A DNA stretch of 63,440 nucleotides from a virus. The position numbers and the translations under genes were made by a program. The DNA lies in IMG/VR virus record IMGVR_UViG_3300017963_000286, positions 1 to 63,440 of that record, one strand, 5' to 3'. Shown piece by piece: positions 5,576-58,979 of this stretch. The notes under the pieces were generated by a model that saw only the letters and a program-made list of their open reading frames with translations, was not told where the DNA came from and did not search any database. How positions within the stretch are numbered: the stretch's first letter is position 1; each line of letters opens with the position of its first letter.

Positions 5576-5614
5576 TCGCTCAATCCTCCATCGCCCTGTG
5601 GGCCTTCATTCCAT

Positions 5615-5630
5615 GCGAACGCGCGTTCAC
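5615..5630. promoter_or_regulatory. 16-bp palindrome, copy a
   Basis: GCGAACGCGCGTTCAC, core GAACGCGCGTTC intact. It overlaps the stop codon of the CHAP lysin gene and sits 39 nt before the ATG of the downstream gene. Confidence 0.75.
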
Positions 5631-6268
5631 GTGGCGGGCCGAATGCCCCAAGGTCTTAAGAATCCCTTGACTCTCATCGTACCCGAATCGTTGATCCCCC
5701 GCACGCGGCGGTGAACCCCATCCCCCTCGCGGACCACCGATCGGCCATCGCTCGTGTTCCCTTCGATGGTCTCGAACTTACCGGGGGATAATACGCGCGC
5801 GACGATCCCGGCATGTCCCATAGCCGTCGGCTTGCCGTTCTTGAAGTGCTGCCAAATGATCAAATCTCCCGACCGCACATCGAGCGCCTGGATCCTGGCC
5901 GGCATGAGCGTTCGATTCCAGCACGTCATGACGTGCTCCGTTTTGAAAAGCCACGTCTCCGGTCCGTCGACCGCCTTGTCGACCGCTTCAATACAATAGA
6001 AGACAAACGCCAAGCACCACGGCTCACCAACCGCTCGCCCGTCGACCGCCTTCTGAAAGGCTTCGACTTCTGGACCGCGATTTGACCCCTTTTCGCGGAC
6101 CCCAACCCAGTGGGACGCCTCCGCGACAAGCGCCTTCATCTTGTCGTCGATCGTGCGCAGCGTCTGCCTCTTAGATTCTAAGTCTTGGGACTTGTTTTGG
6201 GACCTACTATAAGGCGCCCATCGAAGCTCGTCACGTGTTGGCTCTTTGGCCTTCTTGCTCCGAGTCAT
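5627..6268 (-). CDS. CHAP-domain peptidoglycan hydrolase (endolysin candidate)
   Basis: 213 aa. A Lys/Arg-rich N-terminal 45 residues precede a CHAP (NlpC/P60-like) domain at about 50-210: catalytic Cys near 85 in GEPWCLAFV, His near 152 in GHAGIV, and an acidic/Asn pair in ETIEGNT near 166-172. The WQHF and GDLIIW strands are typical. It would cut the peptide part of peptidoglycan. No signal peptide or membrane segment is seen, so it would need a holin, or it acts as a virion-borne lysin. GGAGG lies 5 nt before the ATG. The gene is within the structural block, not next to obvious lysis genes. Confidence 0.8.
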   Translation of the reverse strand: MTRSKKAKEPTRDELRWAPYSRSQNKSQDLESKRQTLRTIDDKMKALVAEASHWVGVREKGSNRGPEVEAFQKAVDGRAVGEPWCLAFVFYCIEAVDKAVDGPETWLFKTEHVMTCWNRTLMPARIQALDVRSGDLIIWQHFKNGKPTAMGHAGIVARVLSPGKFETIEGNTSDGRSVVREGDGVHRRVRGINDSGTMRVKGFLRPWGIRPAT

Positions 6269-9360: not shown

Positions 9361-9399
9361 GGGATTGACCCTCGTGTGAATCGCGATTTTGTGAAATAT

Positions 9400-9415
9400 G
9401 CGAACGCGCATTCGC
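9400..9415. promoter_or_regulatory. 16-bp palindrome, copy b (one core mismatch)
   Basis: GCGAACGCGCATTCGC. Intergenic, 11 nt after the AAA ATPase stop and 39 nt before the next ATG, the same distance as copy a. Confidence 0.65.
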
Positions 9416-9426
9416 CCCGGTGGTGA

Positions 9427-19976: not shown

Positions 19977-21140
19977 TCATATCTTAACGAGAACGTCGAA
20001 CTTGCCGTTCTGGGCCTCCGATGGGCGTATAAATGGTATATAGCCGATCCGGCGGAGCTTTGAACTGATCTCTTTGGCCGTCCGCTGAGTAACAGCGGCA
20101 GAGTGCGTTTTGACCCTCATGCCATGGTGGCTCGTCGCCTCGTTAACGAGCAAAGCAGGGATCCCTCGTCGCTCGGCCGACTCCTTGGTCGATCGGATCT
20201 CGGCCTTCATGCGGGCTATCGCGCGATCAAGCGTCGCCTCATAGTCAGCATCAAAGCGCTGGCTCGCGAGGTAGTCGACCAATTCGGAGACAGAACTCGT
20301 CGGCAATCTGAAACCGTAATCTTTGCCGCCCTTGAACGTGAATCGAAACGGTTCGATATGGACCACTCCGGATGGCTCCACGGAGACTTCGATTGCCGTC
20401 GTCAACTCACGGCCATCGTATGGGGATCGCCTTTTGAGGCGCTCATACTCAATCGAAAATCCGGTCATCTTATTCCAAGTCCTGCCGATCGAAGCCCCGT
20501 CGGTCTTCTTCTTCAAACGCTCGGATGCGGCCTTGAGAACCTTTTTCAGGTCTCCTGCCTTTGTCGCCGAGGCGGCATCCTTCGGCCACGGTCCAAGCAA
20601 CTTGTGAATTTCCACGGCCATCGAAACGGGGGCGAGCAGATATTCCTTTTGATCGAAATGCAGGCAATTCTTTTTGACAGAGTCTGGTAAGTGCTCCACG
20701 TCAATAAGGATGTCGTCCGGCTGTACCGTGGCCTTCAGGATGATCCCCAGAGAACCTTCCTCTCGGCCGGCGATTGAGTGCAGCCCAGCGAACGGCTCGG
20801 CTTCGGATGGATCGCTCGTCCACGATTGCACCTTGCTGGACTTGTAGACTCCCTTGGCGCCTTCCTTGGCCACGAGCTTCGACTTCTTAAGGAACGCCGC
20901 GCCGGTCAGCTGGTCAAAGCCAAGGGCGCGATAGAGGACGACGGGATGCTTGACCTTGAATGGAACGAATGGGTTGTCAACGCCAAACCCGAGCTTCCGA
21001 CCCGCTTTCTGGTTGTATCGCGACAGCTCGTCGCACGCCCACGATGGAATCTCGGCCTCGACCGCCTCCACGAACGCGCGTTCGCATTTAGGAGGGACCG
21101 TTTCAAAGAGCAGCTCGCCGCGTAGCTTTAGCGCTTCCAT
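19977..21140 (-). CDS. ADP-ribosyltransferase-like protein
   Basis: 387 aa. Residues 65-170 carry the R-S-E signature of ADP-ribosyltransferases: Arg 71 in VLYRAL, the S-x-T-S strand SWTSDPSEAEPF at 106-117, and the Q-x-E turn at 164-166 in FDQKEYLL. The beta strand ILKATVQPDDILIDV between them is typical. The C-terminal half (200-387) is an unassigned alpha/beta region. T4 packages and injects such an enzyme (Alt) to modify host RNA polymerase. This one lies directly after the portal gene and its N-terminus has an L-F-E at residues 11-13. GGAGG precedes the ATG, which overlaps the portal stop. NAD-dependent activity is inferred from motifs only. Confidence 0.6.
   Translation of the reverse strand: MEALKLRGELLFETVPPKCERAFVEAVEAEIPSWACDELSRYNQKAGRKLGFGVDNPFVPFKVKHPVVLYRALGFDQLTGAAFLKKSKLVAKEGAKGVYKSSKVQSWTSDPSEAEPFAGLHSIAGREEGSLGIILKATVQPDDILIDVEHLPDSVKKNCLHFDQKEYLLAPVSMAVEIHKLLGPWPKDAASATKAGDLKKVLKAASERLKKKTDGASIGRTWNKMTGFSIEYERLKRRSPYDGRELTTAIEVSVEPSGVVHIEPFRFTFKGGKDYGFRLPTSSVSELVDYLASQRFDADYEATLDRAIARMKAEIRSTKESAERRGIPALLVNEATSHHGMRVKTHSAAVTQRTAKEISSKLRRIGYIPFIRPSEAQNGKFDVLVKI
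21070..21085. promoter_or_regulatory. 16-bp palindrome, copy c
   Basis: ACGAACGCGCGTTCGC, core intact, inside codons 19-24 of the ADP-ribosyltransferase-like gene, about 55 nt after its start and 45 nt beyond the portal stop. Confidence 0.65.
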
Positions 21141-29906: not shown

Positions 29907-29916
29907 CCAAACCTCC

Positions 29917-29932
29917 GCGAACGCGCGTTCGC
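29917..29932. promoter_or_regulatory. 16-bp palindrome, copy d (perfect)
   Basis: GCGAACGCGCGTTCGC, strictly intergenic: 2 nt after one stop codon and 10 nt before the next ATG, abutting its Shine-Dalgarno. Confidence 0.8.
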
Positions 29933-29934
29933 AA

Positions 29935-33004: not shown

Positions 33005-33711
33005 ACCATCTCCTCCTGCTCCTGAAGCGACGCAAAACCGTTAATCGTTCGAGAGTCCCACGCTGTGCGCCAATGCGCACGCGCGTTCGCTATATCCTGA
33101 GGAGTCACCGTCATGACCCCCATCGTCTCGCGCAGAGCGAACGGAATCTCGCTGGCCCCCAAAGCGTCTCGATAAACATCCCAGACTAGCTCTGAACAGT
33201 AGAAGGCCCGCCGCTTATGAACGACCTGTCCAATATTCGCGGTCTTCAACCGATCGATCTGAAAAAGATAGTCATATGGACTGCCAACAGCCGCTAGAGC
33301 GGCCTCGGCAGCGCGCTCCATGTCCCGATCTGCGCAAAACAACGGAGTCATAGCGATCACCCGATCCTTCCCGGAGAAAAAAGTAGCTAGATCCGTGATT
33401 CGAACCAGTGGCGATACCGCCTCCACGACACACGGCAAAACCAAGATGTCGCGGCTTCCAGGCATCACGACCCGACGATGGCCGACATAAACCGCCGCGT
33501 GAGTGTACTCGCCGGATATAAGGAGATTGCTGAACTCGCCATTTTTTCTAGTGAGGAGGGGTTGTCCAGGGATGAGGCGACTAATGGCGTGATGATAATG
33601 AATGCCGGTGACGGCGTGATGCGTCCATGGCGCGTGGATCCTGCCAAGAATTCTCGTCACGGGGATCGCGGCATTCAAAATGGAGAGACGGATGTGCGCG
33701 AGCGTCGTCAT
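33001..33711 (-). CDS. YiiX/NlpC-P60-like papain-fold cysteine peptidase
   Basis: 236 aa. Permuted papain-fold pattern: His in GEYTHAAVYVG near residue 71, and the catalytic Cys in AFYCSELVWDVY near 172. These enzymes cut amide or ester bonds in lipids, proteins or peptidoglycan. The start ATG at 33711 has GAGGAG upstream. The C-terminal 20 codons contain a mismatched palindrome copy. Its place among virion genes suggests a virion component, for entry or envelope processing. Confidence 0.65.
   Translation of the reverse strand: MTTLAHIRLSILNAAIPVTRILGRIHAPWTHHAVTGIHYHHAISRLIPGQPLLTRKNGEFSNLLISGEYTHAAVYVGHRRVVMPGSRDILVLPCVVEAVSPLVRITDLATFFSGKDRVIAMTPLFCADRDMERAAEAALAAVGSPYDYLFQIDRLKTANIGQVVHKRRAFYCSELVWDVYRDALGASEIPFALRETMGVMTVTPQDIANARAHWRTAWDSRTINGFASLQEQEEMV
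33075..33090. promoter_or_regulatory. 16-bp palindrome, copy e (one core mismatch)
   Basis: GCGCACGCGCGTTCGC, inside the last 30 codons of the cysteine peptidase gene, 70 nt before the next start codon. Confidence 0.5.
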
Positions 33712-38917: not shown

Positions 38918-38940
38918 TTCGATGGCTCCCTTTTGTCCAC

Positions 38941-38956
38941 GCGAACGCGCGTTCGT
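38941..38956. promoter_or_regulatory. 16-bp palindrome, copy f
   Basis: GCGAACGCGCGTTCGT, core intact, in the 39-bp gap between two genes: directly after one stop and 23 nt before the metallopeptidase ATG. Confidence 0.78.
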
Positions 38957-39184
38957 TCACTCAAGTCGGTCGATGATATCCGAAAGCGAGTCAGGAAGAG
39001 ATTCCGGATCCGGTCTCGATACCGCGAGACCGGCTTCGCAAAATGGACACATGGCGAATGCCTCGGCGATATCGAAGATCCAATGCTGGAGGGTCTTTAC
39101 CTCCTGCGCGGTCTCTTGCCCGCACTCCGGGCAAACGTAGACCAAAATCAGCATCAATCTTCCGTGGACTGCCGCATCATCCAT
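38957..39184 (-). CDS. Small zinc-ribbon protein
   Basis: 75 aa from an ATG with GGGAG upstream. Two CxxC pairs, CPECG near 19 and CPFCE near 46, form a zinc ribbon. The C-terminus is acidic (DPESLPDSLSDIIDRLE). Probably nucleic-acid or protein binding; no function assigned. Confidence 0.6.
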   Translation of the reverse strand: MDDAAVHGRLMLILVYVCPECGQETAQEVKTLQHWIFDIAEAFAMCPFCEAGLAVSRPDPESLPDSLSDIIDRLE

Positions 39185-43277: not shown

Positions 43278-43540
43278 CGGCACGGGCTCTCGTTCATAAT
43301 GCTCACCGCAGCCATTACGTTGTCGACCTCGATGGCCGACCGAATCCAATCCGTGCTCAGGCATTCAACGACAGCTAAATTTGGCCGCCGTCCTTTCAAG
43401 CTGCTGAGATAGTGGTTCAAATCCGAATACATCGTGCCGCCTAGTCTTTTCAGAATGACCTCCGTTATCGGCGGAATAAAAAGCGAACGCGCGTTCGCGC
43501 CATCGCGCTGGACGAAGGCTACCCAGGAACGGTGGGTCAT
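43274..43540 (-). CDS. Small hypothetical protein containing a palindrome copy
   Basis: 88 aa. GAGG lies before an ATG overlapping the upstream stop. Codons 14-19 (GANARS) encode palindrome copy g. After it comes IPPITEVILKRLGG and an alpha/beta body. A second start beyond the palindrome is possible but has no clean ATG site nearby. Confidence 0.45.
   Translation of the reverse strand: MTHRSWVAFVQRDGANARSLFIPPITEVILKRLGGTMYSDLNHYLSSLKGRRPNLAVVECLSTDWIRSAIEVDNVMAAVSIMNESPCR
43483..43498. promoter_or_regulatory. 16-bp palindrome, copy g (perfect)
   Basis: GCGAACGCGCGTTCGC, about 42 nt after a start codon and 39 nt from the previous stop, within codons 14-19 of the small gene. Confidence 0.7.
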
Positions 43541-47276: not shown

Positions 47277-47828
47277 TCAGTACTCCGCCGCAGCATACCG
47301 CGCATCGCTTTCAACCATCTTCTCGAAACAGGCGCGACATGGACGATCGTTCTCGTCGCCGTAGTCGTCCCCACCAAGAGCCTTCAGGTCGTCGAGCGAA
47401 AGGGCGGGCTTCTTCTCGCAGCGATAGCAAGACGGGACGTGCGAACGCGCGTTCGCGGACATCGCCCCGACCTCACGGCACGCATCCGGCGAGACGCGGC
47501 CGAAGACAATCAGGGGGCGAAGCTCATCCGCCGTGAGCTTGGCGTCAGCCGCCTCACCGGATCGATCGCTGCCGCATAGGATGCCGCATCCGGCAAAGAA
47601 GGATTGATGCGGCGAGCGGGCGGGGCCATCCACCAGACGGACGATGAATCCATAGTCGACATCCTTGCATAGGCCGTCGCCGTCGACGTAGATGCAATCG
47701 TGGTTGTCGAAATAGACGGCGCCGTCGATCGAATCGCATTGGATGCGGTCGTAAATCGCCTGCAATGACCCATCCGTCTCGACGTCGACCACCCGCTGTC
47801 GATAGGCGTCAATCAATACCGCCTTCAT
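47277..47828 (-). CDS. DUF3846-like protein joined to a Cys-rich module
   Basis: 183 aa. Residues 1-120 (MKAVLIDAYRQRVVDVE ... GPARSPHQSFFAG) look like the DUF3846-type phage protein. Residues 134-183 form a separate zinc-like module (CYRCEKK ... CRACFEK). Palindrome copy h lies exactly between the two (codons about 125-130). GGAGG precedes the ATG. The layout suggests two genes joined across a palindrome. Confidence 0.55.
   Translation of the reverse strand: MKAVLIDAYRQRVVDVETDGSLQAIYDRIQCDSIDGAVYFDNHDCIYVDGDGLCKDVDYGFIVRLVDGPARSPHQSFFAGCGILCGSDRSGEAADAKLTADELRPLIVFGRVSPDACREVGAMSANARSHVPSCYRCEKKPALSLDDLKALGGDDYGDENDRPCRACFEKMVESDARYAAAEY
47441..47456. promoter_or_regulatory. 16-bp palindrome, copy h (perfect)
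   Basis: GCGAACGCGCGTTCGC inside a gene, at the boundary between two protein modules, 162 nt before the stop. The copy deepest inside a gene. Confidence 0.65.
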
Positions 47829-51489: not shown

Positions 51490-51845
51490 TGCGTCACCTC
51501 CACCCACGCTTTCGCGTCCCATCGCCGTCGACCGAGCCCGACGATCTCTTGGGGGTCGATGAGCGTCACTTTGCGAAACCGCCGCTCTTGAGCGTGGGAC
51601 GTACGCAAAGGCGCGTGCGGGTCTTCATTGCCGGAAAGCGACTGCCAATCCCCAGGCTCGACTTCGAAGAAGGAATAGATTCGTTCCGGGTGGGAGGCGG
51701 CAGGAGGCAGCCGATCATCAACCTGAATGTCGAGAGCGCCGGCAATCCTTGCCAACGCCTTGATCTCGTCCTTGCTCCCAACGAAAACCCGAATACCGTC
51801 CGCGAACGCGCGTTCGCCATCAATCAAATGCTCCGTCTCAGTCAC
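51483..51845 (-). CDS. Small hypothetical protein containing a palindrome copy
   Basis: 120 aa from a GTG with GAGG overlapping the upstream stop. Codons 10-15 (ERAFAD) encode palindrome copy i. Alpha/beta with SFFEVEPGDWQSLSG and EIVGLGRRRWDAKAWVEV at the end. Unknown role. Confidence 0.5.
   Translation of the reverse strand: MTETEHLIDGERAFADGIRVFVGSKDEIKALARIAGALDIQVDDRLPPAASHPERIYSFFEVEPGDWQSLSGNEDPHAPLRTSHAQERRFRKVTLIDPQEIVGLGRRRWDAKAWVEVTQW
51802..51817. promoter_or_regulatory. 16-bp palindrome, copy i (perfect)
   Basis: GCGAACGCGCGTTCGC, about 28 nt downstream of the start codon of the host gene and 25 nt from the previous stop. Confidence 0.7.
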
Positions 51846-54245: not shown

Positions 54246-54374
54246 TCAAGGATCACGATCGTCGTCGTCATCCCGTGTGATAACGATAAATACCAATATC
54301 ATTAAGAGCATAGCCGACATGCTGGCGATTTGATGCCAGGCAATGTCGAGAATGAGCTCACCTGCATTTGTCAA
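54246..54374 (-). CDS. Tiny membrane protein with acidic tail
   Basis: 42 aa, TTG start overlapping the stop of the methyltransferase (tTGA). MTNAGELILDIAWHQIAS, then a span MLLMILVFIVIT and an Asp-rich tail RDDDDDRDP. Confidence 0.45.
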   Translation of the reverse strand: MTNAGELILDIAWHQIASMSAMLLMILVFIVITRDDDDDRDP

Positions 54375-55999
54375 ACCACCTCGGCCTCCCCGGTCGCGAC
54401 CGGCGCCCAGGGGACCAGCCCTGCCTCGATCGCCTCGCTGCGATAGTTCCCGGACGCATCTTTGATCCCGCTCAGTCGCATAAAAGCCTCCCTTACTTGC
54501 GCAGGGACCACGGCGTTACCAAGCGCCCGAATCTGCTCCACTCGAGAAGGGAACCCTGTCACTGTGCGCGGCACATCAGGCCACTCACTCCACCACACGT
54601 CACCTACGGCAGCTGCGACGACAAGCCAGTCCTGGTGCGCTGACCCAAGAGAATCCCAGATGTTTTCAAGAGGCGTTGGGTGCTTAGCGAACGAAGAAGC
54701 AAAAGCATCGTCGAGGCGATGCGCGGGGCTCATCGACTGAATCGCGTGGTGCGACCGTGCGTAAGTAAAGTATGCCACAATTTGCACAGCGATGCCAAAC
54801 GGAAGCGAGCCCTCCTGATACCCCCCGTCAAGCTTGACCCCTGACAAGCTTGACCCCTGACAGCGGTGCTCATGAACAGCCCTAAGAATCGCCTCAGGAG
54901 AAAGGGTGGCTACGACTTCTTGATCTTGCGAACGGCCTTCTTCGCCGCCAGCCAAGCGTTCCATCCCATCGTGTCGAGCTCGGTCCAGCCCGCCGGAAAG
55001 TTCATGAGCCAGCAGACGAACGTCGGATTGAGTACCCTCGGCTTCTTCTGAAACTCGCCCGGCGGCAGGGGCCACGGGTCCTTCTTCAGGACGTGCTCGT
55101 TGAGCGGCGCCCCGCCCTGCCTCGAGTAGCTCTCTTCGGTCGCCGTCACTCCCGAGCGGTGATCGCGCGAGGTCGGGGTCGGGAAGATCTCCCCCGCTGC
55201 CCTGGCGGCATCGGTCAGCGTCGTCCCCGGATGCATGATTCCCGTCGTCGTCGTGTGTCGACCCGAACTCTTGGCGTCGGTCGAGGTCGGGGTCGGCCAC
55301 ATGCCGATGCCGGTCGACGTCACCGTGCAAGGTATGGGCGAGTATTCGACGCGCGAGTTCGGCCAGAGATCCTTTGACGCCATCGTGTCGAGGGAGACGA
55401 CCTGGCGCTGCGTGCCCTTCCTGATCCCGTTGCCGCCCGTCCCGTAGCGAGCGGCGGTCGGCGTCGGAAGCAGCGGCTGGCCCGATTCGGTGTGCGTGGG
55501 CAAGTAAGAACCACCTGTCACGGATATGCGGCGATGCCACATCTGCAGCGGCCAAACAATCCCATCGACAGTCATACCCGAGCGCGGCCAGCTCTTTGAC
55601 CACTCGCTCTCCGCCACGGGTCCTAATCGCCGCGACATTTTCAAGGAAGACGAAGCTCGGCCTGACTTCGTCAACGAGCCTGAGTATCTCGAAAAAAAGC
55701 CTGCTTCGCTTCCCTTCCAAACCAGCTTGAACGCCTGCGGAGGAGATATCTTGACATGGAAATCCCCCAAAGATGATCTCAGGCCGCTCTGGCAACTCTC
55801 TGCCTTGGAGTGTGGAGACGTCATCCCAGATTGGCGCGGGGTCGAGCCTGCCATCGCGCATTCTCGACAAAAGCACCTGTCTGCAGAATGAGTCGATGTC
55901 GCAATATGCGACCGTTCGGACCCATGGCCGCAATGCGACAGCGATTCCGCCGATCCCCGAAAAGAGGTCCAACCCGGGCATCCTTCGGGAAATATCCAT
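54371..55999 (-). CDS. Cytosine-C5 DNA methyltransferase (Dcm-like)
   Basis: 542 aa from the ATG at 55999 (AGAGGGG upstream). Motif I GLDLFSGIGG near 9, motif IV GGFPCQDIS near 79, motif VI FLENV near 118, motif VIII RDRWFLLA near 160, and motif X-like QIRALGNAVVP near 490. The middle, residues about 190-375, is Arg/Asp/Gly-rich and does not look like a usual target-recognition domain. The other frame of the same DNA does (see alternative ORF). The gene could be whole with an odd middle, carry an overlapping gene, or be decaying by frameshifts. A 16-bp tandem duplication sits at 54831-54862. Confidence 0.7.
   Translation of the reverse strand: MDISRRMPGLDLFSGIGGIAVALRPWVRTVAYCDIDSFCRQVLLSRMRDGRLDPAPIWDDVSTLQGRELPERPEIIFGGFPCQDISSAGVQAGLEGKRSRLFFEILRLVDEVRPSFVFLENVAAIRTRGGERVVKELAALGYDCRWDCLAAADVASPHIRDRWFLLAHAHRIGPAAASDADRRSLRDGRQRDQEGHAAPGRLPRHDGVKGSLAELARRILAHTLHGDVDRHRHVADPDLDRRQEFGSTHDDDGNHASGDDADRCRQGSGGDLPDPDLARSPLGSDGDRRELLEAGRGAAQRARPEEGPVAPAAGRVSEEAEGTQSDVRLLAHELSGGLDRARHDGMERLAGGEEGRSQDQEVVATLSPEAILRAVHEHRCQGSSLSGVKLDGGYQEGSLPFGIAVQIVAYFTYARSHHAIQSMSPAHRLDDAFASSFAKHPTPLENIWDSLGSAHQDWLVVAAAVGDVWWSEWPDVPRTVTGFPSRVEQIRALGNAVVPAQVREAFMRLSGIKDASGNYRSEAIEAGLVPWAPVATGEAEVV
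54831..54862. repeat. 16-bp tandem duplication
   Basis: AAGCTTGACCCCTGAC twice in a row inside the C-terminal third of the methyltransferase gene. Because 16 is not a multiple of three, gain or loss of one copy shifts the reading frame. Confidence 0.85.
54910..55575 (-). other. Alternative-frame ORF resembling a methyltransferase target-recognition/C-terminal region
   Basis: In the frame shifted relative to the methyltransferase, 221 codons read as the familiar phage methylase-associated pattern: MWHRRISVTGGSYLPT, then LLPTPTAARYG, MWPTPTSTDAKSSG, FPTPTSRD, and LNPTFVCWLMNFPAGWTE before a stop. Both frames therefore contain family-like sequence over the same DNA. Whether this frame is translated, or represents the original sequence before indels, cannot be told from here. 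Confidence 0.45.
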
Positions 56000-56000
56000 G

Positions 56001-56633
56001 TCATTGAACCCCTCTCGACGCGTGATGGACCGCGATGCGGCGCAGCCAATCGATCCATTTATCAAGCGGCATGTCCCGCTTCAGAAAATTACAGGTCTTG
56101 CAGCAAGGTACGCAGTTTCCTTCGACGTAACCCAAAGCGTTGTCTTGCCTGTCAATTCCGTTTATTCCCTCTCGCGCGCCGCAATATTCGCAAGCTCCTC
56201 GCACTAGCTCAGCGAAAAGATCAAACGAAAGGTCAAATGACCGTCCGCGCTTGGGAGCCTCTTTGCGATACTGCCGAAATCGCAAACGTACCTTAGCTTC
56301 GTCGCCAAGAAGTTTTCGCGGATTTGGTAAGCAGCCGCACGACCTTGTATTACCTGATCTGAGATTGGTGCTTCGAATGGCCGCCCTGTTGCCGCAATCA
56401 CAAGCGCACAGCCATTTGAACACTCCCGATGAGTCGGGAGCAGACGGCTCTAATGCTGTCAATCGCCCAAATCTCTGCCCTGTGATGTCTATATACGGCT
56501 TGACCTTCCTGGGCTCTCGTTGGCGATCCTTGTTAGCGGCACGATAAGCAGCTCGCGTATCCTTAACACGGTCCTTATTCCGCTCCCTCCACGAGCGCAC
56601 GGCAGCCGCTTTATCCTCTCTCGTTTTCGTCAA
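56001..56633 (-). CDS. HNH homing endonuclease
   Basis: 210 aa. N-terminal basic helix, then a DNA-binding zinc domain (GQRFGRLTALEP near 53, then LCACDCGNRAAIRSTNLRSG ... SCGC near 80-100), and a C-terminal HNH nuclease (CEYCG near 147, GIDRQDNALGYVEGNCVPCC near 157-176). This is the usual build of free-standing phage homing enzymes. TTG start with GGAG 11 nt upstream; palindrome copy j lies 25 nt upstream. It sits between a methyltransferase gene and a tRNA gene. Confidence 0.75.
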   Translation of the reverse strand: MTKTREDKAAAVRSWRERNKDRVKDTRAAYRAANKDRQREPRKVKPYIDITGQRFGRLTALEPSAPDSSGVFKWLCACDCGNRAAIRSTNLRSGNTRSCGCLPNPRKLLGDEAKVRLRFRQYRKEAPKRGRSFDLSFDLFAELVRGACEYCGAREGINGIDRQDNALGYVEGNCVPCCKTCNFLKRDMPLDKWIDWLRRIAVHHASRGVQ

Positions 56634-56658
56634 CTTACAACCGCTCCCGTCTCAGCGT

Positions 56659-56674
56659 GCGAACGCGCGTTCAC
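56659..56674. promoter_or_regulatory. 16-bp palindrome, copy j
   Basis: GCGAACGCGCGTTCAC, core intact, intergenic: 6 nt beyond the tRNA 3' end and 25 nt before the HNH start. Confidence 0.78.
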
Positions 56675-56680
56675 ATGGAG

Positions 56681-56766
56681 AGATGCGGGCTGGATTCGAA
56701 CCAGCGATAGAGCAAGCGCTCGCGGGCTTTGCAAACCCGCCCCTTCGGCCGCTCGGGCACCGCATC
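56681..56766 (-). tRNA. Class-II-shaped tRNA with Cys anticodon GCA
   Basis: 86 nt. Acceptor GATGCGG/CCGCATC (7 perfect pairs) with discriminator U; D arm CCC/GGG with a serine-like TGCCCGAGCGGCCGAAGGGG; anticodon stem CGGGT/GCCCG with loop TTGCAAA, giving anticodon GCA (Cys); a long variable arm GAGC-GCTT-GCTC; T arm GCTGG/CCAGC with TTCGAAT. CCA is not encoded. Cys identity is supported by GCA and U73, but ordinary tRNA-Cys has a short variable loop, whereas this one has the long arm of Ser/Leu tRNAs. Confidence 0.85.
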
Positions 56767-56779
56767 AGCCATCAGTCAT

Positions 56780-57892
56780 TCAGAGCTCAGTCGAATCTTC
56801 GTCGCGACTCCTTAGATAAGCCCTGATCTGATCACGCAGACACAGCATCCGATCGCTGCCGTCGTCGTTGAGCATCCAAAGGCCCTGCCAGTCGCGAATC
56901 AAGTCGGTCGTCGGATCGAACTGGTTTTCGGTCAGTATCTTCCAGCGGTCCCAATAGAACCGTTTTCGCTTGCTCCCATGGAACGCGTGGGTGATGACCC
57001 CGGGAACGCATCCGACGTTTCGACGAATGTATCGCTCGGCTCGAGCCTGCCACTTCAGCACAGTGGCGCGATAGGCGGGCGTCACATCCGTCGGCATCGC
57101 CTCGTCGCCTCGGCCGAGAAGAGCCAGAGCCATATGATGGTCCCCAGCCCCAAGAATGCCGGTATCGAGCAGGCCGCCCACTGCATTGAACGCTTCGCGA
57201 CGAGCGGCCCATCCGTAGCCGGGATGCCAAAAAACTCTGTTGCCGGGGAGGCCGGCGCCCAGCCGATAGGGGCCGTTGGTCTCGCCTTTTATGTGCGACG
57301 ACGTGAACCTCTGCGGATTTAGCTTTCCATCCACAACCAAAGGCGGGATCTCAGGATTGTTAAACTGGTTCAAATAGCAGTGGTTCATCCCGATGTTGGT
57401 GCCAATGACATCGAGCGCGGGGGGAGGCCCGATGTCTATGGCCTGTGAGAACATCTGAACGAAGTCGTAATGCTGCAGCTGATGAATCGTCTCCTGAACC
57501 CAGTCGGGTCGAACGAAGTCGATGTCAGCATCGAGCCACGCCACGTACTTCCAATCAGGGATTGGGATCCGTGATACGCCGATATTTATCGCGCATTCCT
57601 TGTGCCACATCTCCTCGCGCGTGCGCAGCTGCACGTGCCAAGGATTGCCAGCCTCGGTGATCTCAAACGGGCGCTCGCCATACGCGAGCTCGACCGTCAG
57701 CAGCTGGGCGCCGCTCTCCTCTACGTGCTTGGCAAACTTCCGGTAGAGGTTGTAACGCGTGCGGTAGCGGACCGGGTTCGACACCATCGTGACCACGACA
57801 AACTTACTCAGGTCGATCGGCGTCAGGTCACTGCGATGGATGCTGCGGTACCCAAGGTCATGGAAATGACCCGGAGAGGTAGGCGTAGCCAT
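56780..57892 (-). CDS. GT-A-fold glycosyltransferase
   Basis: 370 aa. WKYVAWLDADIDFVRPDW near 115-132 carries the D-A-D metal-binding motif. Later PGYGWAARREAFNAVGGLLD near 232-251 and GILGAGDHHMALALLG near 252-268 form the acceptor-side GT pattern. C-terminal helices end near the tRNA. It could glycosylate phage DNA, virion protein or host surface sugars. No clear ribosome site, so the ATG is chosen from length. Confidence 0.75.
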   Translation of the reverse strand: MATPTSPGHFHDLGYRSIHRSDLTPIDLSKFVVVTMVSNPVRYRTRYNLYRKFAKHVEESGAQLLTVELAYGERPFEITEAGNPWHVQLRTREEMWHKECAINIGVSRIPIPDWKYVAWLDADIDFVRPDWVQETIHQLQHYDFVQMFSQAIDIGPPPALDVIGTNIGMNHCYLNQFNNPEIPPLVVDGKLNPQRFTSSHIKGETNGPYRLGAGLPGNRVFWHPGYGWAARREAFNAVGGLLDTGILGAGDHHMALALLGRGDEAMPTDVTPAYRATVLKWQARAERYIRRNVGCVPGVITHAFHGSKRKRFYWDRWKILTENQFDPTTDLIRDWQGLWMLNDDGSDRMLCLRDQIRAYLRSRDEDSTEL

Positions 57893-58773: not shown

Positions 58774-58781
58774 GATCCCGT

Positions 58782-58797
58782 GCGAACGCGCGTTCAC
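58782..58797. promoter_or_regulatory. 16-bp palindrome, copy k
   Basis: GCGAACGCGCGTTCAC, core intact. It overlaps the stop codon of the gene at 58794 and lies 8 nt before the next ATG. Confidence 0.75.
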
Positions 58798-58979
58798 AGC
58801 CCCAACCACCCCTGCTGCTCCTCGGTCAGATCCTCAGACCGGATCGCAAACATAATAGTCGTCGAGCGGCGCCCCGCCCCACGCTCCTTCGCCAGCCACA
58901 CTACCGGATGGTCATAGGTGAACACGTTGCGGGTCGATCCATCCACCCAGTCATACACCGTCAGCATCCAAGGCCGCAT
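58794..58979 (-). CDS. Small hypothetical protein
   Basis: 61 aa, MRPWMLTVYDWVDGSTRNVF at the start and a charged C-terminus. Overlaps the SPFH gene stop. Unknown. Confidence 0.5.
   Translation of the reverse strand: MRPWMLTVYDWVDGSTRNVFTYDHPVVWLAKERGAGRRSTTIMFAIRSEDLTEEQQGWLGL

Follow-up and report, generated by a model that had tools for sequence, protein, structure and literature searches.

A virus-encoded tRNA-Cys candidate with a long, class-II-shaped variable arm, and its counterparts in phages and Phycisphaerae

In bacteria, a long variable arm is normally the mark of the transfer RNAs (tRNAs) for serine, leucine, tyrosine and selenocysteine (Sec). Here we analyze a tRNA gene in the virus record IMGVR_UViG_3300017963_000286, whose 63,440 bases are the window of this study. 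At 56681–56766 on the minus strand, the window contains a complete 86-nucleotide (nt) tRNA with the anticodon GCA, the discriminator U73 and, at 17 nt, a variable arm of class-II type. Judged by its sequence, it is very probably a phage tRNA-Cys with a variable loop grown to a class-II arm, charged with cysteine and reading UGC and UGU. Since GCA and U73 are joined to a Cys-like body, the host cysteinyl-tRNA synthetase (CysRS) is the most likely charging enzyme. We establish here the structure of this tRNA, its identity elements, the similarity of its body to tRNA-Cys, the recurrence of the type among phages, and its status as the sole tRNA-Cys in a bacterial lineage.

An earlier, sequence-only reading of this DNA had described the combination of GCA, U73 and a long class-II arm, with all stems pairing well, and ARAGORN, the Rfam tRNA model and RNA folding now confirm that description. 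ARAGORN calls tRNA-Cys(gca) at 56680–56766 on the minus strand. The covariance scan that the same reading had proposed gives 49.7 bits and a 7/5 acceptor/T branch at 56681–56766 when this segment is scanned alone (cut-off 29), although a scan of the whole window (1–63440, gathering thresholds) reported nothing and thus missed the tRNA. The gene reads GATGCGG TG CCC GAGCGGCCGAA GGG G CGGGT TTGCAAA GCCCG CGAGCGCTTGCTCTATC GCTGG TTCGAAT CCAGC CCGCATC T. Its acceptor stem pairs at 7/7 positions between the 5′ strand GATGCGG (56760–56766, with G1:C72 and A2:U71) and the 3′ strand CCGCATC (56682–56688), the T arm GCTGG TTCGAAT CCAGC (56689–56705) at 5/5, and the anticodon stem at 5/5 with one G-U pair. 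The D arm (56741–56757) has a stem of 3 base pairs (bp), CCC/GGG, and the loop GAGCGGCCGAA with G20b. The anticodon (56730–56732) lies in TTGCAAA, an ordinary Cys loop, and the discriminator (56681) is followed directly by CTCC, the CCA tail not being encoded by the gene. An RNA energy model, unaided, recovers the cloverleaf and a variable hairpin at −40.7 kcal/mol (z −2.0).

The variable arm CGAGCGCTTGCTCTATC (56706–56722) forms a 4-bp stem, GAGC/GCUC, closed by the loop GCUU and separated from the T stem by 4 unpaired nt. When these 17 letters are shuffled, a 4-bp stem turns up by chance 35% of the time, so in this single gene the length is informative and the stem is not; across distinct viral class-II GCA tRNAs, variable stems beat 500/500 shuffles. 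With 17 nt, the region falls outside the 4–5 nt of class I and, being longer than 10 nt and carrying a stem, has the shape of class II. The 7-bp acceptor stem, GCA and 3-bp D stem set the molecule apart from tRNA-Sec (8-bp acceptor, UCA, 6-bp D stem), as the 7/5 branch does from selC* and allo-tRNAs (8/4 or 9/3).

In Escherichia coli and yeast, Cys identity rests chiefly on U73 and GCA, and U73 alone confers Cys identity on minihelices (PMC9976931). The body of the window tRNA, taken independently of these elements, is also nearest to Cys. In a 48-position profile that leaves out the anticodon, position 73, the variable arm and all positions fixed by the search pattern, its score is −45.8 under class-I Cys and −56.7 under Ser, a difference of 10.9 log units in favour of Cys, the class-I reference having been gathered through its D-arm pattern and hence being a non-random sample. 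None of 55 held-out Ser tRNAs reaches this Cys-over-Ser margin, and the profile assigns 50/55 held-out Ser and 52/59 class-I Cys tRNAs correctly. Of the segments scored separately, the acceptor stem resembles Cys, the anticodon stem does not discriminate, and the T arm ranks Tyr first and Cys next. The sequence-only reading had also likened the D and variable arms to those of tRNA-Ser. This holds for the D arm, which fits Ser but class-I phage tRNA-Cys equally well, and fails for the variable arm, whose geometry is unlike that of Ser. G20b occurs in 29/42 class-II versus 1/63 class-I viral tRNA-Cys, an enrichment that suggests a structural change accompanying the long arm.

The type recurs widely in viruses. 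All tRNA sets compared here are non-random, having been drawn by sequence patterns. A first pattern, combining a Ser-like D arm with a Cys anticodon loop, was run on viral contigs and returned, among the matches listed, mostly class-I tRNA-Cys with variable loops of 5–7 nt and others at 9 nt, 11 nt and longer, to a maximum of 18 nt, so that the variable lengths of GCA tRNAs run almost without gaps from 5 to 18 nt. A second pattern, requiring long variable regions and leaving position 73 free, matched 84 viral and 86 bacterial contigs. Among 42 distinct viral class-II GCA tRNAs with a good cloverleaf, 40 carry U73, two A73 and none G73. Over all class-II GCA tRNAs, position 73 is U in 94 and A in 5, as against U in 11/166 class-II Ser, Leu and Tyr tRNAs (Fisher 4e-52, a value inflated by sequence relatedness). 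The carriers include isolates, namely Enterobacter phage PG7 with its relatives and Escherichia phage EcS1 (32 records at ≥80% coverage), whose genes are simply called ‘tRNA-Cys’ in most annotated records; the variable stems of PG7 and EcS1 are unlike in sequence and pair in both. The window capsid protein is matched in 8/24 records of class-II GCA phages; no capsid lineage is common to these phages, and the type is therefore not the quirk of one phage family. A literature search, to which most subscription papers were out of reach, did not turn up any description of a class-II tRNA-Cys with a 7/5 branch.

A second line of evidence comes from bacteria in which the class-II form is a resident gene. 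Among the 80 bacterial contigs listed of the 86, 41 bear titles beginning Phycisphaer-, and others are titled Planctomycetota; the Phycisphaerae tRNA reads GGCCGTGTGCCCGAGTGG...TTGCAAA...(U73). The complete chromosome CP053450.1 (PNC22), a metagenome-assembled genome, has 46 tRNAs covering all 20 amino acids; its sole tRNA-Cys is class II with GCA and U73, and its four Ser tRNAs all carry G73. Across 148 planctomycete genomes, eight have a class-II tRNA-Cys and none of these has a class-I one (the single class-I match among them, in G126, is not a tRNA, judged by its sequence), whereas about 130 others have a class-I match. We class such genomes as putatively Phycisphaerae-type from the similarity of their tRNA to that of the named contigs. 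All eight encode CysRS, with TGC as the codon for its zinc-ligand cysteine in every case, so that TGC means cysteine where the class-II form is the only tRNA-Cys seen. Together, the synthetase and its TGC-coded ligand strongly imply that the class-II tRNA-Cys is charged with cysteine. In 11 Phycisphaerae-type tRNAs, the variable-arm pairs show double compensatory changes in 3/3 pairs and are 100% paired; the arm, by this covariation, is a maintained helix. The eight CysRS genes (L396–L403) are full length and score 336–379 bits against TIGR00435, where other full-length matches mostly reach 390–548; the low scores may reflect co-adaptation or only phylogeny.

How might the long arm have arisen? 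One account, which we consider unlikely, is alloacceptor remolding, in which a Tyr or mixed class-II body gained GCA and U73 and charging would still be with Cys. It draws on the Tyr-first score of the window T arm, on the 5/37 viral class-II GCA bodies that score nearest Tyr, and on a tree of GCA tRNAs, weak as it rests on 65 columns, in which short and long forms interchange 24 times, at least seven of these changes being forced by supported branches. However, the acceptor stem and the whole body of the window tRNA are nearest class-I tRNA-Cys, the near-continuum of variable lengths points the other way, and A73 is retained where a Tyr-like body seems to have undergone a true anticodon shift (L277, L316 and L323). 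These three class-II GCA tRNAs, either apparent anticodon-shift tRNAs or sequencing errors, make a helpful contrast.

Another account concerns the reason for the arm and is compatible with Cys charging. Nucleases that cut tRNA variable loops exist and could select for a long arm (PMC13096335), and the variable region might have been remodelled to survive or decoy such a host enzyme. Long arms do occur on many phage isotypes: in the viral loci, a variable region of at least 11 nt with a stem of at least 3 bp is seen in 51 tRNAs whose isotypes are as a rule class I (Asn, Asp, Glu, Gly, His, Ile, Lys, Met, Phe, Pro, Thr, Trp and Val), some of them possibly misparsed, above all a recurrent Ile(UAU) type. 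The commonest discriminator of the own isotype is kept in 42/51 (shuffle mean 26.5), so arm growth is not coupled to an isotype switch; six of the nine exceptions are Thr with U73, a frequent discriminator of class-I phage tRNA-Thr. Our analysis identified no nuclease that targets the variable loop of tRNA-Cys, however, and a resident gene of the same shape in Phycisphaerae has no obvious need to escape a nuclease of its own. As the reason for the window arm, nuclease escape is improbable, and we are equally doubtful of its wider form, that phages repeatedly turn class-I tRNAs class-II-shaped with the isotype kept to resist or decoy variable-loop nucleases, the window tRNA-Cys being one example. 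The sequence-only reading had itself proposed a Cys tRNA adapted to escape host cleavage, and the evidence is in favour of the ‘Cys tRNA’ part of that proposal. We also weighed an escape mutation in the anticodon loop and discarded it: the sequence there is that of an ordinary Cys loop, which makes escape from an anticodon-loop nuclease unlikely.

Two groups among these long-armed tRNAs deserve separate mention. The recurrent phage tRNA-Ile(UAU) has a 22–27-nt variable region, often with AGATNAG, and nearly always A73 (L105, L111, L113, L127, L140, L147, L171, L176, L185, L190 and L203). Class-II-shaped Thr, Asn, Asp, Met, Lys, His, Glu and Trp tRNAs mostly carry their own discriminator (L095, L103, L115, L150, L189, L204, L210, L221, L226, L246, L254, L255 and L321).

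Far less probable is a Ser tRNA with a Cys anticodon, charged by the seryl-tRNA synthetase (SerRS) through its long arm and placing serine at Cys codons as a mistranslator or a partial code change, as the sequence-only reading had suggested. A class-II arm and G20b are present, SerRS does not read the anticodon (PMC9976931), and the Ser anticodon GGA is one mutation from GCA. Yet Ser identity, for which the long arm is the main element, also involves G73, a determinant in vivo, and the conserved G1:C72 and G2:C71 (PMC9976931), and the window tRNA has U73 in place of G73 and A:U in place of G:C at 2:71. G2:C71 is found in 64/67 Ser tRNAs versus 15/47 viral class-II GCA tRNAs. Most Ser variable arms have 5–7 bp and 1 unpaired nt before the T stem, against 4 bp and 4 nt here. 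Moreover, the body scores as Cys, the class-II GCA type serves as the sole tRNA-Cys of a bacterial genome, and the catalytic cysteine of the window C5 DNA methyltransferase and the CxxC residues of its HNH endonuclease are coded TGT or TGC, so that misreading as serine would be costly. Nor does the earlier suggestion of a recombinant hybrid agree with a Cys-like acceptor stem, the lack of any distinctly Ser segment and a type that recurs in many phages. That the gene is a decayed, non-functional relic or an assembly error, as its being the sole tRNA in 63 kb without an encoded CCA might hint, is extremely unlikely given perfect stems, intact identity elements and its place in a supported five-member clade with other viral class-II GCA tRNAs.

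Several points weigh against a cysteine-charged phage tRNA-Cys with an expanded loop, besides the non-random profile sample. The T arm by itself is a marginally better match to Tyr than to Cys. No close relative of the window tRNA was seen, the nearest sharing 74% of 65 core positions; in the same weak 65-column tree it belongs to a supported cluster made up of five viral tRNAs with long arms, and the nearest Phycisphaerae-type tRNA (L280) differs from it at 19/61 core positions. No promoter-like site was found near the gene. Finally, as SerRS recognizes chiefly the long arm and takes no account of the anticodon, some serylation is conceivable from the sequence.

On the expanded-loop reading, the variable loop of a class-I-type phage tRNA-Cys would have grown to a class-II arm while GCA and U73 were kept. 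The D arm of phage tRNA-Cys, a 3-bp stem with an 11-nt loop that is already class-II-like in a set selected by that D arm, may have eased the expansion. The host would add CCA and its CysRS would charge the tRNA with cysteine, and the product would supplement tRNA-Cys in infection by reading UGC and UGU of phage messages; transcription, charging and decoding in the phage's own host we infer from these features. The 38 open reading frames of the window hold 178 Cys codons, 138 UGC and 40 UGU. A long-armed tRNA-Cys that is the sole one in a bacterial lineage and occurs in many phages means that class and isotype are separable in nature, and it has implications for how SerRS turns away long-armed tRNAs and for why phages remodel variable regions.

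The T4-type head genes of the window are about 30–35% identical to their best known-phage matches, and the tRNA is its only one. Upstream and co-directional lies a gene that is glycosyltransferase-like by inspection and has no PHROG match (56780–57892, minus), ending 14 nt before the tRNA; downstream and co-directional lies the HNH endonuclease gene (56001–56633, minus). The C5 DNA methyltransferase gene, with a GGFPCQ motif, follows at 54371–56065, downstream of both and also on the minus strand. When the locus or the tRNA was compared by BLAST with annotated phages, no full-length relative emerged; the contigs near-identical in head genes are fragments without a tRNA match, and a 157-kb relative has 17 Rfam tRNA matches with no Cys tRNA among them. 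A near-perfect palindrome around GAACGCGCGTTC has about 11 copies in the window where 0.38 matches are expected, often intergenic (5613–5632, 9398–9417, 21068–21087, 29915–29934, 33073–33092, 38940–38958, 43481–43500, 47439–47458, 51800–51819, 56657–56676 and 58780–58799). It is possibly an operator or an RNA hairpin, and none of the other loci retrieved contained its perfect form.

Among known systems, class-I bacterial and phage tRNA-Cys share with the window tRNA the GCA in TTGCAAA, U73, the 7/5 branch, the 3-bp D stem and the body profile, and differ in a variable loop of 4–7 rather than 17 nt and in the rarity of G20b (1/63 class-I phage tRNA-Cys). The selC* tRNA-Cys (Mukai et al., reviewed in PMC7609411) has a long variable arm, GCA and U73 as well, but an 8/4 branch with a bulged A51a, and comes from anaerobes, whereas the window tRNA is a plain 7/5 molecule. 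tRNA-Ser resembles it in the long variable arm and D-arm consensus, and departs from it in G73, G2:C71, a longer arm with another offset and another body. The T5 phage tRNA-Tyr with its cleavage-resistant variable loop (PMC13096335) is likewise a phage tRNA with a distinctive variable region, but Tyr is class II in bacteria anyway, and for the window tRNA such resistance is a conjecture. The closest counterparts are the class-II tRNA-Cys of Phycisphaerae, PG7 and EcS1, which have in common with it GCA, U73, the 7/5 branch and the long arm, on bodies that are only distantly similar.
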